A DNA stretch of 33,387 nucleotides, from NCBI GenBank assembly GCA_017635095.1, contig JAGBMA010000125.1, positions 1-33,387 on the forward strand, in the 5' to 3' direction. Position numbers and translations under genes: made by a program. Within the stretch, counting starts at the first letter, position 1. Each line of letters begins with the position of its first letter. Source of the stretch: Ruminiclostridium sp. (lineage in GTDB: Bacteria > Bacillota > Clostridia > Oscillospirales > Ruminococcaceae). Below are positions 6,318-33,387 of the stretch, piece by piece. The notes beneath the pieces are model-generated. The model was not told the DNA's origin. It worked only from the letters and a program-made list of their open reading frames with translations, and ran no database searches.

Positions 6318-8605
6318 ATAAGAAGATCCGAAAGGTCAGAATCCGCACCGGGGTCGCTGCCGAATCCCCAGTCATCATTGCTTGATGAGCTCTTGAATGC
6401 GGGTTTTTCATTCTTTTTGGGCTGAGAACTTGTCTGAGATGAGCCTGCAGCGAACAGATCTGCAAATTCACCGAAGTCGTCATCAATAGAGCTGCTCGGC
6501 AGGGTATTCTCTTCGTCGAAGTTGAGGTCTGCGGGAGTGAAGTCTCTGTTTGCAGACTGTTCAGACTTTGCCGCATCAGCCATCATATTTGCAAGAGTAT
6601 CGTCGTCCGTTCCGGCAGGATCTATCGCGATATCGAATATGTCCGCGCCGAGATCGCTTCCCTTGTCGGGCTTTGAAGCCTTATCAATAGGTGTGATGTC
6701 GAAATCACCGCCAATGGGCTCGGGAGCCGCGTCGAGAGAGAAGTCATCGACAACGCCGACACCTTCCATATTGATGAGCGGAATGTCGCCGGACAGGTCG
6801 TCGTCCTTGGGTTCAGTGAGGAAGAAGTCCTCAAAGTCTGCATCAAGACCGGGTCTTTCAGCCTTGGCAGAATTATCGGGTCTGGGTGCTTCCTTCACTG
6901 CGGGCTTTGCGGGCTCGGGCTCGGGCTCGGGCTTGGTCTCCTCGAATACCGGAGCAGTGATAACGTCGGGCACATCTGCCATAAGATCATCGTCGCTTGG
7001 GATATTTGTTTCGGGAGAGTCTATTTCGATCGAAGAAATGATGTCGCTGTCCTCGAAATCGTCATCATCTGCAACATCAGGTGCGCTTCCGTCGGATTCG
7101 ATCGTTGCTTCGACTTTGAGCTTTCTCTTGATCGCATCGAACTTATCTGCGCTGAATTTACTGTCGTCAAACTCAGGCATAACGAATCTTGCCTTGAGGG
7201 AGCCGACTGCAAGAGCGATCTCTTCGCCGATCTTTGCGATAGGGGAGAGGTCTGCTGCACTTGCCTGAGAGTCTGCGGCTGTCTGTGCTTCGGCAACACC
7301 GGACTTGGCGGTATCGAGCTTTGATTTTGCTACATCAACGATCTTCGTGATGTCGTCAACACCGGACTTAGCGCTGTTGAGCTTGTCGCCGAAACCACTC
7401 ATCTGCTTTGAAGCCTCGCCTATGAGACCGGAAGTTTCGCTTATCTTCTTTGAAGTCTCGCTTATCATACCGGTAGTCTCGTTCATCTTTCTCGATGCTT
7501 CGGTTATCATACCGGTAGTTTCGTTCATCTGTCTGGAAGCGTCATTGATCTTTTCGGTGGTCTCGCTTATCGTTCTTGCAAATCCGGTGATCTGCGATGA
7601 TGTCTCATTGATCTGTTTGGAAACACTGTCTATCTGTGAAGTAGTCTCGTTGATCTGCTTTGAAACGCTGTCGATCTGTGATGTGGTATCGCTTATCTGC
7701 TTTGCAACGCTGCCGATCTGACCGGTCGTCTCGTTGAACTGTTTGCAGATACTGTCGATGTTTTCGGTCACACCTGAGATCTGTGTGTTTACCGAGCTGA
7801 ACTGTAAAGCGAAGGAGTCGAACAGGGAAGTGAGCGCACCGATCTTTCCCGTTACTTCCTTTACTTTCTTTGCAGACTCAGCCTGTTCTGCCTCAGTCTT
7901 CCTGATCTGTGCTTCAAGTCTGCTCTTTATGTCATTGAGCTTATTGGAACGTTCCTTTAGCTCTGCTTCAACTTCTGCCTTGTACTTGTCCGCAGCGCGT
8001 ACTGCCTCAGCGGAATAGCTCTTTGCCGCAGCGATTATCTCCTTTGCGTAAGCGCTTGCCTCTGCCATGACCTCATCTGCGTTGCTTTTAGCGACCGCCT
8101 TGCCGGAAACGGTACCGCCGCCGCTCTTTTTGAGAGTGAGGTACCTATCCTTGAGCTTTTCGTACTCTTCGCGAACTTTTTTCTCGGACATCTTCGCCAT
8201 AGCGCATTCCTTGTCGAACTTAGCGACATTTCTGCGCTCGTCGAGAATGCTCTTGCGGAGCTCCATGATCTTCTTGTCGCTCTCGGCCTTGAGGTTATCT
8301 ATAAGTTTCTTTGTCTCTGCGGAGCTATCCTTTATAATGGGAGCGGACGCTGCAGCGGCAGCTTGTTCTGCGCTCTTTTTATCGACCTTTGCTTTTGCAA
8401 CTTCCTTGTTTGCGTCTTCAAGGTTTGTCTGGAGGTTGTTGAGTCGTTTTTCGTACTCTTCAGCCTGCTCCTTCATCTGCTTTCTGAGCTTGTTTATGTA
8501 CAGGTTGACTTCATTTTTGTCAAAACCGCCCATGACGGTCTTAAAGCCGGCACCTTCACTGTTTACCTCTTTTTTCTTGTTATTATCCTGTTTAGCGTCT
8601 GCCAT
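6314..8605 (-). CDS. DivIVA-like coiled-coil protein with 14-residue repeats and acidic tail
   Basis: A 763-residue cytoplasmic protein. Residues about 21-36 (FKTVMGGFDKNEVNLYIN) resemble the N-terminal DivIVA/GpsB membrane-binding motif. A long coiled coil rich in Lys, Glu and Ala follows (about 40-265). Next come nine tandem 14-residue units (residues 280-405) with consensus near T-x-Q-I-x-x-x-S-K-Q-I-N-E-T, then a helical stretch to about 500. The tail (500-763) is acidic, disordered and Pro/Asp-rich. By analogy with DivIVA proteins it may organise the cell pole, septum or wall synthesis, but no function is proven. The start ATG at 8605 has GGAGGT 6 nt upstream, while the frame to 8650 has no such site. 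A consensus promoter lies at 8683-8711. The stop overlaps the fumarase beta-subunit start. Confidence 0.72.
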   Translation of the reverse strand: MADAKQDNNKKKEVNSEGAGFKTVMGGFDKNEVNLYINKLRKQMKEQAEEYEKRLNNLQTNLEDANKEVAKAKVDKKSAEQAAAAASAPIIKDSSAETKKLIDNLKAESDKKIMELRKSILDERRNVAKFDKECAMAKMSEKKVREEYEKLKDRYLTLKKSGGGTVSGKAVAKSNADEVMAEASAYAKEIIAAAKSYSAEAVRAADKYKAEVEAELKERSNKLNDIKSRLEAQIRKTEAEQAESAKKVKEVTGKIGALTSLFDSFALQFSSVNTQISGVTENIDSICKQFNETTGQIGSVAKQISDTTSQIDSVSKQINETTSQIDSVSKQINETSSQITGFARTISETTEKINDASRQMNETTGMITEASRKMNETTGMISETSKKISETSGLIGEASKQMSGFGDKLNSAKSGVDDITKIVDVAKSKLDTAKSGVAEAQTAADSQASAADLSPIAKIGEEIALAVGSLKARFVMPEFDDSKFSADKFDAIKRKLKVEATIESDGSAPDVADDDDFEDSDIISSIEIDSPETNIPSDDDLMADVPDVITAPVFEETKPEPEPEPAKPAVKEAPRPDNSAKAERPGLDADFEDFFLTEPKDDDLSGDIPLINMEGVGVVDDFSLDAAPEPIGGDFDITPIDKASKPDKGSDLGADIFDIAIDPAGTDDDTLANMMADAAKSEQSANRDFTPADLNFDEENTLPSSSIDDDFGEFADLFAAGSSQTSSQPKKNEKPAFKSSSSNDDWGFGSDPGADSDLSDLLI
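7391..7768 (-). repeat. Nine tandem 42-bp units encoding 14-residue coiled-coil repeats
   Basis: Nine consecutive 14-residue units (two heptads each), from TENIDSICKQFNET to SGLIGEASKQMSGF, can be aligned without gaps. Two adjacent units (TSQIDSVSKQINET) are identical in protein. Strong DNA similarity between neighbours suggests expansion by duplication, so copy number may vary between strains. Confidence 0.9.
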
Positions 8606-19013: not shown

Positions 19014-19667
19014 TTATCCGATGCAGTTTCTTATCTTCTGCATGAGAGTGCTGTTGATCTCATCTATGCTCTTCGGTTCGCCGTCTTTGCTGCAGGGTAT
19101 CACGTCCCAGCCGTATCTTGAGGCTGCATACAGAGCGGCGTCCCTGCATCTTCTGAGGTATGCGGTATCGCGCTCGTGGATATCCTTTTTGCTCTCGTCA
19201 CCGCCGTACCGTCCGGAAAGAAGCTTCTGTGACACATCGGTGGGCATATCAAGAAAGATCGTAAGATCGGGTTCCGGCATACCGAGTTTCTTATACTCAA
19301 GGTCGGTGAGCCAGTCAAGATAGCTTTCCCATTCGGCTTCATCGAGCTTTGTCATCTGATAGACCGCGTTTGACGAAACGTATCTTGCCGAGATCACGGG
19401 TCTTCCGCTTTCATAAAGAGCTCCCCAGTGCGTTCTGAAGCTCGTGTACCGGTCAACGGCGTACATAATGCTTGCGGAATATGCACTTTTATTCGGGTCT
19501 TTCTCGTCAAATTCACCGCGGAGATACGCGCTTATGATACGTCCGCTTTCCGATTCATAGCAGGGGAAAGTGATGAAATGAGCGTCGGGCAAATTCTTAC
19601 GGAGCAGTTCAAGCTGAGTGGATTTGCCGCTTCCGTCAAGGCCTTCGATAACTATGAGCTTGCTCAT
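19014..19667 (-). CDS. tmk: Thymidylate kinase
   Basis: A 217-residue P-loop kinase phosphorylating dTMP to dTDP. The P-loop is EGLDGSGKST (residues 8-17). The DR-type nucleotide-binding motif appears as YAVDRYTSF, then YVSSNAVYQ, and a lid-type LDMPTDVSQKLLSGR follows. The start is ATG 19667, where GGAGG sits 7 nt upstream. An earlier in-frame ATG is unsupported. It is the first gene of the long minus-strand run, behind its own promoter (19702-19730), and is divergent from maf. Confidence 0.94.
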   Translation of the reverse strand: MSKLIVIEGLDGSGKSTQLELLRKNLPDAHFITFPCYESESGRIISAYLRGEFDEKDPNKSAYSASIMYAVDRYTSFRTHWGALYESGRPVISARYVSSNAVYQMTKLDEAEWESYLDWLTDLEYKKLGMPEPDLTIFLDMPTDVSQKLLSGRYGGDESKKDIHERDTAYLRRCRDAALYAASRYGWDVIPCSKDGEPKSIDEINSTLMQKIRNCIG

Positions 19668-19701
19668 GAGCATACCTCCGTTCATATCACATTATCACTA
19701 T

Positions 19702-19772: not shown

Positions 19773-19801
19773 TTGACAAAAGAGAGGAAAAATGATAAAA
19801 T
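19773..19801 (+). promoter_or_regulatory. Sigma-A promoter reading into the structured repeat and maf
   Basis: TTGACA at 19773-19778 and TAAAAT at 19796-19801 are separated by 17 bases, with an extended -10 TG at 19793-19794. The predicted transcription start near 19808 coincides with the first base pairs of structured repeat copy 1. No other promoter is visible between the repeat and maf. Confidence 0.82.
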
Positions 19802-19806
19802 AAGTT

Positions 19807-20065
19807 AATATGTCCTCAATAACTGCCTTTTGGCAGTTATTGCCTGAAAGTCTGTAAAACAGACTTTCAGATGTTGTTCCAATGCAACTGCGGCTCATTG
19901 GATCAACGGACACATTACTTGATGTCAGGCTCATTTCGTTCTTCGGACGAACAAAAGTGCAAGGAAAATCTTAAAATATATAAATTTTCCTTGCACTTTT
20001 GCAACCGTGAAAAGCCTTCAAGCTGCGCTATGAAGACTTTTCGCGGTTGATGAGCAGACATTAAG
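19807..20065 (+). repeat. Structured covarying repeat, copy 1 (six hairpins)
   Basis: A two-module palindromic element. Module 1 is closed by AATATGTCC (19807-19815) with GGACACATT (19908-19916). It holds hairpins CAATAACTGCC/GGCAGTTATTG (19817-19842), CTGAAAGTCTG/CAGACTTTCAG (19844-19870) and GTTGTTCCAATG/CATTGGATCAAC (19873-19907). Module 2 is closed by CTTGATGTC plus CTCAT (19918-19934) with ATGAG plus GACATTAAG (20050-20065). It holds a small hairpin (19935-19951), a perfect 17-bp stem (19953-19969 with 19984-20000) and an 18-bp stem (20003-20020 with 20031-20048). An inverted second copy is at 33154-33387, with compensating changes in the stems. Transcription from the promoter at 19773-19801 would make it the 5' leader of maf or a separate RNA. 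Short reading frames inside it are not convincing genes. The rest of the 19668-20092 gap is the two divergent promoters. Confidence 0.88.
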
Positions 20066-20092
20066 TTATTCTTACAGGAAAGCGGTGTTTTT

Positions 20093-20644
20093 ATGATAAT
20101 TCTTGCGAGTAAGTCTCCCCGGCGAAAGGAGCTTCTTTCGCTTATTACAAGGGATTTTGAGGTGATACCGGCTGTCGGCGAAGAGATCGCGGACAGGTCG
20201 CTTCCGCCGTCAGAATATGTTGCAGAGCTTGCAAGACATAAAGCGGAAGAAGTTGCTCGTTCATATCCCGATGATATTGTGATCGGAGCAGATACGATAG
20301 TCTCGGTGAACGGCGAGATCCTCGGAAAGCCGAAAGATGAGGCAGATGCAAAGAGAATGCTGAAGATTCTGTCCGGCTGTGAACATTCAGTATTCACGAG
20401 TGTGTGCATAAAGTGCGGAGATAAGAACAATGCGTTCTGTGAAGAAACAAAAGTTCGCTTTTTTGAGCTTACCGAACAGGAGTTAAATGAATACACCTCG
20501 ACCGGCGAACCTTTTGATAAAGCCGGCGCGTATGGTATCCAGGGGCTCGGAGCGCTGCTTGTGAGCGGGATAACCGGCGATTACTACAATGTCATGGGGC
20601 TCCCTGTGGGAAAACTTGCCCGGGAATTGAAAAAATTTGGTTGA
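20093..20644 (+). CDS. Maf family nucleoside triphosphate pyrophosphatase
   Basis: A 183-residue Maf/YhdE-type enzyme. The family hydrolyses dTTP, UTP or modified nucleotides to monophosphates, a house-cleaning role linked in Bacillus to septum control. Motifs are the N-terminal LASKSPRRKELL (4-15), GADTIVSVNGEILGKPKDEADAKRML with the catalytic Asp, and the C-terminal GAYGIQGLGALLVSGITGDYYNVMGLP. The Arg-rich N-terminal signature suggests the dTTP/UTP subfamily. A weak ACAGGAAAG ribosome binding site lies about 8 nt upstream of the ATG. The only promoter seen upstream lies beyond the structured repeat, giving a 5' leader of about 285 nt. In a typical Firmicute maf is near radC and mreB, not here. 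Confidence 0.93.
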   Translation: MIILASKSPRRKELLSLITRDFEVIPAVGEEIADRSLPPSEYVAELARHKAEEVARSYPDDIVIGADTIVSVNGEILGKPKDEADAKRMLKILSGCEHSVFTSVCIKCGDKNNAFCEETKVRFFELTEQELNEYTSTGEPFDKAGAYGIQGLGALLVSGITGDYYNVMGLPVGKLARELKKFG

Positions 20645-33136: not shown

Positions 33137-33153
33137 ACTCAAGAGGCATACTA

Positions 33154-33387
33154 CTTAATGTCTGCTCATCAGCCAATAAATTGCTTCATAGCGCAGCTTG
33201 AAGCAGTTTATTGGCTGCAAAAGTGCAAGGAAAATTTTTATTTTTTAGGATTTTCCTTGCACTTTTGTTCGTCTGAAGGACGAAATGAGCTTGACATCAA
33301 GGAATGTGTCCGTTGTTTAAATGCACCGCAGGAGCATTTAAACAACATCTGAAAATCTGTTTTGCAGATTTTCAGTCAATAACTGCC
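33154..33387 (-). repeat. Structured covarying repeat, copy 2 (inverted, cut by window end)
   Basis: This is the second copy of the element at 19807-20065, in reverse orientation. Outer stem CTTAATGTC plus CTCAT (33154-33169) pairs with ATGAG plus GACATCAAG (33285-33301). Inside are an 18-bp stem (33171-33188 with 33199-33216, one wobble), the same perfect 17-bp stem as copy 1 (33219-33235 with 33250-33266) and a 6-bp hairpin TTCGTC/GACGAA (33268-33284). The next module has GTTGTTTAAATG/CATTTAAACAAC (33312-33346) and CTGAAAATCTG/CAGATTTTCAG (33349-33375), and the window ends inside the first arm of the last hairpin (CAATAACTGCC, 33377-33387). A 64-codon frame across it is a by-product of the repeat. 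No classical terminator for rsgA is seen before it, so it may serve as one. Confidence 0.88.

Follow-up and report, generated by a model that had tools for sequence, protein, structure and literature searches.

What kind of sequence lies twice, in opposite orientations, in a 33,387-nucleotide stretch of Ruminiclostridium DNA (contig JAGBMA010000125.1 of assembly GCA_017635095.1; the window hereafter), and what makes its hairpin stems change in matched pairs while loops stay fixed? A sequence-only reading had placed inverted copies of a shared architecture at 19807–20065 and 33154–33387. The inverted repeats were found, with arms 19832–20066 and 33153–33387 that are 86% complementary, and both copies fold far better than dinucleotide shuffles (z of −15.0 and −12.8). 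Comparison across the family shifts the borders to 19808–20061 (plus strand) and 33158–33387 (minus strand). Copy 1 folds into two closed modules of three hairpins each; in copy 2, of which the left end is missing, the fold retains a closed module B together with H2 and H3 of module A. The only open frame listed over copy 1 is a mechanical one on the minus strand (19915–20496) running through maf into the element, and the element of about 254 bp is apparently non-coding. Elsewhere in the window, positions 7388–7718 hold 12 imperfect copies of a 21-nt spaced repeat that, if coding, would specify a 7-residue protein repeat. The features around the two copies are:

19014–19685, minus strand: upstream divergent gene, thymidylate kinase (Pfam PF02223)
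19773–19801, plus strand: promoter-like TTGACA-17-TAAAAT directly 5′ of copy 1, reading into copy 1 and on to maf (putative, from sequence and a family-wide left/right asymmetry)
19801–19807, plus strand: left target-site duplication TAAGTTA, touching the −10 box
19808–20061, plus strand: copy 1, six-hairpin mobile element of 254 bp
19808–19915, plus strand: module A, closing stem ATRTGTCC/GGACACAT (folds and pair counts), with hairpins H1 CAATAACTGCC.., H2 CTGAAAGTCTG.. and H3 GTTGTTCCAATG..
19922–20061, plus strand: module B, closing stem ATGTC..GCTCAT/ATGAGC.GACAT (folds and pair counts), with hairpins H4 (UUCG loop), H5 CAAAAGTGCAAGG.. (18-bp stem, invertible loop) and H6 (loop AAGCTGCGCTAT)
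20062–20068, plus strand: right target-site duplication TAAGTTA
20093–20644, plus strand: downstream gene maf, Maf-like protein (Pfam PF02545)
33158–33387, minus strand: copy 2, right end at 33158, left part lost at the contig end, flank TACTTA (TAAGTA in the element sense)

The paired changes between the two copies were re-examined by eye. The stem described earlier as 18 bp long is that of H6, and the perfectly paired 18-bp hairpin with a flipping loop is a different one, H5. About five compensating pairs had been claimed for H6; six both-sided differences are present (four Watson-Crick to Watson-Crick, one T.G to A-T and one C.A to G-C), while one further, one-sided difference breaks a pair. 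The H6 loop TAGCGCAGCT is common to both copies, as had been stated. Likewise, the C-G to T-A and C-G to A-T changes in the 12-bp stem of H3, with its shared loop CCGCAG, and the G-C to A-T change in the 11-bp stem of H2 are as first described.

Further copies with compensatory changes exist both in the same genome and in its relatives. In the genome of origin (236 contigs, 3.83 Mb), a search for the left end AATGTGTCCTCAATAACTGCC allowing up to 3 mismatches gives 59 places, against none for the reversed pattern, and one for the right end ATGTCTGCTCATC allowing up to 1 mismatch gives 53, against 3 for the control. A contig end is touched by 18 of the highest-scoring family places there, and the element may be partly responsible for how fragmented this assembly is. 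Within the genus at least 21 of 71 genomes, the genome of origin included, carry the element by DNA matches (at least 8 of the 41 most complete), and its spread over species is patchy. The matches listed for an inner 20-mer, from which the genome of origin was possibly left out, are metagenome-assembled genomes titled Ruminiclostridium, uncultured Ruminococcus, Ruminococcaceae or Clostridia; the titles that give a source name rumen, omasum or abomasum. A search with a covariance model of module B gave matches in two samples: 14 of 396 genomes from the family, representing 9 of 126 genera with the own genus counted, and 6 of 394 genomes from the order, namely three of the same genus and three of other families. 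Copies were delimited from 7 of the 15 matching genomes outside the genus; they measure 230–253 bp and have six hairpins in the same order, with the GTGCAAG hairpin kept and the other stems mostly different. Two of these seven (G719 and G753) belong to other families, and the third match in another family (G602) lies outside the seven. In some outside copies the closing stems pair unlike those of the window copies in the lowest-energy fold. A phage origin was considered and rejected, the single IMG/VR match having only the 20-base pattern, without the element.

The sequence-only reading could not see that the repeat is mobile, that it is flanked by target duplications or that it inserts at promoters. 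A set of 88 elements was assembled in which both ends lie 40–330 bases apart, at least 60 flanking bases are present and the flanks are distinct. The elements span ATGTGTCC to GAGCAGACAT between copies of TAAWWA; their length is 254 bp in copy 1 of the window, with indels among copies, and their terminal inverted repeats are short and imperfect (ATGTGTCC versus ATGTCTGC). A target-site duplication of 6–7 bp flanks 67 of the 88 (62 exact at 6 bp and five more over 7 bp), whereas with the flanks re-paired randomly 1000 times the number of exact 6-bp matches averaged 16.8 and never exceeded 31; the other 21 show no exact duplication of either length. An empty site was found for copy L012 (contig C159 of the same genome, 230–487), which interrupts a periplasmic-binding-protein gene. 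Three relatives (G032, G055 and G047) carry a single TAAATA there at 98–99% identity, with the frame open across the site, and PF01497 was found at the empty-site gene in the two relatives tested (G032 and G055). Weaker matches across junctions come from L004 in G055 (80%) and G047 (74%), L001 in G060 (77%), L054 in G032 (71%) and L009 in G002 (71%). The flanking duplications and the empty site in three relatives together show that the element moves. Neighbouring or tandem copies, in which one element starts in or beside the duplication of another, occur in L029, L074, L092, L098, L143 and L208 (13437–13751).

The consensus of the left flank is TATAATTA; TTG forms a weak peak 17 bp before the −10 box, and the right flank past the duplication carries little signal. 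TATAAT is found in the last 10 nt at the left end of 39 of the 88 elements versus 3 at the right end, and TTGACA-16/17/18-TATAAT with up to 2 mismatches in 25 versus 2. A good promoter match is thus present in well under half of the copies, yet the side is strongly biased, and the element prefers to insert at the −10 box (TATAATTA) in sense orientation. In the window the promoter-like TTGACA-17-TAAAAT reaches up to the duplication, and copy 1 sits between this site and the start codon of maf, which begins 31 bp past the element. By crude open-frame calls the nearest gene on the right is oriented away from the element in 56 of 73 contexts (76 of the 88 elements were taken, 73 of them with a right-hand gene call). 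Because insertion at the −10 box is sense-oriented, the element should become the 5′ leader of an mRNA. Three copies (L005, L054 and L056) lie just after a long open frame, and L012 lies inside a gene.

Covariation was followed in an alignment of 51 copies, made up of distinct copies of 245–262 nt from the set of 88 and of two divergent ones (L098 and L099) included by hand, and thinned below 95% identity to 21 diverse copies. In these 21, 95.4% of the cells pair and 45 of 93 pairs show both-sided changes. Controls with the partners slid by 1–3 columns gave 33.8–41.1% pairing and 6–13 both-sided pairs, so much lower on both counts that the paired changes are not due to chance. The covariation score was 0.306, compared with 0.121 when columns were shuffled and no more than 0.067 when partners were slid; the shuffle tests are inflated by relatedness, which the slid controls keep. 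Further pair types, the weak one of five measures, numbered 79 versus 73.4 in shuffles, of which 25 in 500 reached 79. Both-sided covariation above the controls, as found in the 21 copies, is what a structured RNA under selection is expected to give.

Two further observations concern H3. In L003, L004, L005 and L008 its left arm comes from one subfamily and its right arm from another, which suggests recombination between copies within the hairpin. In L147, L190 (322 bp), L214 (near 1036–1360) and L186, about 68 extra hairpin-rich bases stand at its apical loop, and the surrounding hairpins differ.

Shortened derivatives that keep both ends are 51–226 bp long, and a junction repeat of 3–9 bases is found in 21 of 31. 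In the 125/126-bp form module B is lost precisely, by a join at TTGATG/TGATG in all seven copies, and the closest full copies of these seven are four different ones. That the short derivatives are independent transposons was considered and set aside, since the junction repeats and the differing closest full copies favour deletion in situ, which is the more likely origin of the 125/126-bp and the other derivatives. Such derivatives therefore do not prove that the ends suffice for movement. Their junction repeats would fit expectation if the hairpins extrude in vivo. Hairpins of 46 bp in which two left ends face each other were also seen, as pattern matches only in two contigs of the same genome (C198:9096–9141 and C17:1426–1471) and as a reduced module A in L039 (592–637).

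The pairing had been proposed at the outset to be either under selection or regenerated by copying, and there is evidence for both halves. Loop or spacer inversion and homogenisation of arms have been described as footprints of template switching (PMC8794818, PMC8604942). In 23 of the 51 copies the apical loop of H5 has the forward orientation and in 21 the inverted one, with 7 ambiguous copies, whereas in the rRNA system of PMC8794818, which shares compensatory pairs and inverted loops as footprints, loop inversions are rare. The inverted match of L071 was reached by none of 100,000 shuffles, and the small loops of H1 and H2 also occur inverted (TTTT/AAAA and TAAAA/TTTTA). With one fixed T.G pair left out of the counts, there are 34 distinct A.C mismatch states versus 24 G.U, and 12 versus 9 when only states shared by at least two copies are taken. 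The inverted loops and this parity of G.U and A.C argue for copying at the DNA level; the hairpins seem to be renewed by template switching, which we hold to supply most of the paired changes. The selection half is argued by loops that never flip and by the six hairpins kept across families. The H4 loop reads C(TNCG)G in 39 of the 51 copies and the H6 loop AAGCTRCGCT in 46, and the reverse of either occurs in none, a sign of strand-specific selection on the RNA side; UNCG is described, in excerpts of PMC8794818, as stable in RNA only. The layout is probably fixed by selection, probably on RNA, a statement made less firmly than that on template switching.

A rival reading is that the element is a plain miniature inverted-repeat transposable element (MITE) whose internal hairpins have no role and whose arms persist only through re-perfection of palindromes by template switching. 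Loop inversion, the parity of G.U and A.C, and palindrome-linked deletions such as the loss of module B in seven copies speak for it. This is nevertheless unlikely, because the seven outside copies keep the same six-hairpin order, the GTGCAAG hairpin and a length of 230–253 bp while their stems are otherwise different, and because the loops of H4 and H6 do not flip.

Alternatively, the copies may belong to a functional family of cis-regulatory or other structured RNA that spreads passively, with compensatory changes arising through two-step selection on the sense RNA. The sense orientation downstream of promoter-like sites, the UNCG loop of H4, the fixed loop of H6 and the maintenance of six hairpins across families are all in keeping with it. 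Selection on a sense RNA should, however, favour G.U over A.C and a lower energy of the sense strand, and neither preference was found in the 51-copy set: A.C is as frequent as G.U among the shared states, and the sense fold is lower in energy than the antisense in 22 of the 51, which is no sense advantage. The inversion of the H5 loop and the copies that follow a long open frame or lie inside a gene speak against it as well, and we regard it as decidedly improbable. Searches for known RNA families agree with the earlier statement that no named one fits. At the Rfam gathering threshold the window gives only 4 tRNAs and 12 related loci give nothing; relaxing to E≤10 yields, besides tRNAs, nothing but weak matches that fall far short of it. 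The four tRNA genes stand in a row on the plus strand at 1862–2214. A hammerhead-like CTGATGAG noticed by eye near the right end was dropped, as many copies read TTGATGAG.

No parent transposon was found among matches to TAANWAATGTSTSC with up to 1 mismatch, inspected by eye in G060, G002 and the genome of origin (for the last, 100 of 129 matches were listed); in this material no such end without a short-range partner brackets a gene of 0.6–5 kb. Sites of a duplication plus an end that were left over in the three genomes proved to be copies that had decayed or been truncated, or else matched by chance within genes. The one formal case, two inward right ends 3.3 kb apart on contig C2 of the genome of origin, consists of a short derivative and a truncated remnant. 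A composite transposon was also rejected: in L077, L048 and L208 the long frames that separate neighbouring copies encode GGDEF, Band 7 or ABC transporter proteins or match no family, and Pfam gave no transposase in these three intervals. From the duplication alone, the default guess would be a DDE-type enzyme acting in trans.

A more radical reading is that the folded element, as transcript or single strand, forms part of the mobilisation complex and that integration is aimed at transcription open complexes, by an enzyme that is host-encoded or an unknown integrase and not the product of a decayed insertion sequence. It is suggested by the duplicated TAAWWA, which lies inside the DNA melted by RNA polymerase at the −10 box, and we give it a slim chance. 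Movement of a REP/BIME-like element by a Y1 transposase (IS200/IS605- or RAYT-type) acting on single-stranded hairpins is largely refuted and very improbable: the element is hairpin-rich, repeated and mostly between genes, and carriers G060 and G293 have Y1 genes, but target duplications are present, which Y1 enzymes are not known to make, and PF01797 was not found in 6 of the 8 carriers tested (G000, G032, G047, G059, G326 and G719). Genome G001 of the same genus has seven near-identical Y1 transposase genes, with no element copy among the matches listed.

No description of the element was found in the open-licence papers searched. By the available parts of PMC10969869, it shares with prokaryotic MITEs a length within 50–500 bp, an apparent lack of coding, inverted ends, direct repeats of the target, AT-rich sites and predicted foldable transcripts; unlike them, as described there, it has no parent insertion sequence among the matches inspected, a fold of two modules whose six hairpins covary across the family, and an orientation-specific preference for the −10 box. 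A match to a MITE had been named as a refutation of the sequence-only reading; in kind the element is indeed MITE-like, without being assigned to any named MITE or MITE family.

Compared by description in portions of PMC3446304 and PMC2267715, the bcr1–bcr18 repeats of the Bacillus cereus group are likewise interspersed and MITE-like (bcr1–3) and are transcribed in UTRs, as the element should be, and bcr10 and bcr18 have a conserved secondary structure, like the element; they differ in host group and in length (bcr1, 147–167 bp), and those portions mention neither −10 box targeting nor loop inversion. Similarly, BOX, RUP and SPRITE of Streptococcus pneumoniae, as described in part of PMC3049150, are small mobile-looking repeats with extensive folds that are co-transcribed; BOX is modular, and the ends of BOX and of RUP pair with each other. 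They are over-represented between convergent genes, whereas the element prefers promoters in the sense direction. The element resembles bcr and BOX in that it is a repeat that folds, looks mobile and is predicted to be co-transcribed, and is set apart from them, by their descriptions, in its layout, its sense −10 box preference and its frequent loop inversion. Palindromic repeats are shared with REP/BIME and RAYT (excerpts of PMC2817692 and PMC3733652), which differ from the element in its target duplication and in that no Y1 enzyme was found in most of the carriers tested; REP/RAYT has a GTAG/CGTC tag beside a hairpin of 20–40 bp (PMC3733652), against six hairpins in 254 bp here.

The best explanation overall, to which we give a probability of roughly two thirds, is a non-autonomous, MITE-like mobile element that relies on a transposase in trans, has a role as a leader and is shaped by template switching and selection. 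A transposase supplied in trans would recognise the short ends ATGTGTCC.. and ..GAGCAGACAT and insert double-stranded DNA. Judging from its spacing, the promoter kept at the insertion site would give transcripts that begin in the first bases of the element, and the folded element would become the 5′ leader of the host mRNA. Most paired changes would come from replication switching template between the arms of a hairpin, copying one arm onto the other and sometimes inverting the loop, and selection for the folded form, probably as RNA, would decide which variants spread.

This hairpin series, present in many copies in several genera, makes compensatory change and loop inversion directly readable, and therefore whether selection or template switching produces paired changes can be tested outside rRNA. 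If real, the preference for one orientation at the −10 box would be an unusual way for a bacterial mobile element to choose its targets. Should the reading with transcription open complexes prove true, the element would represent a new class of mobile element, in which insertion along transcription leads to a new copy that is born transcribed. Insertion at the −10 box would mean that the 5′ leaders of many host genes have been rewritten.
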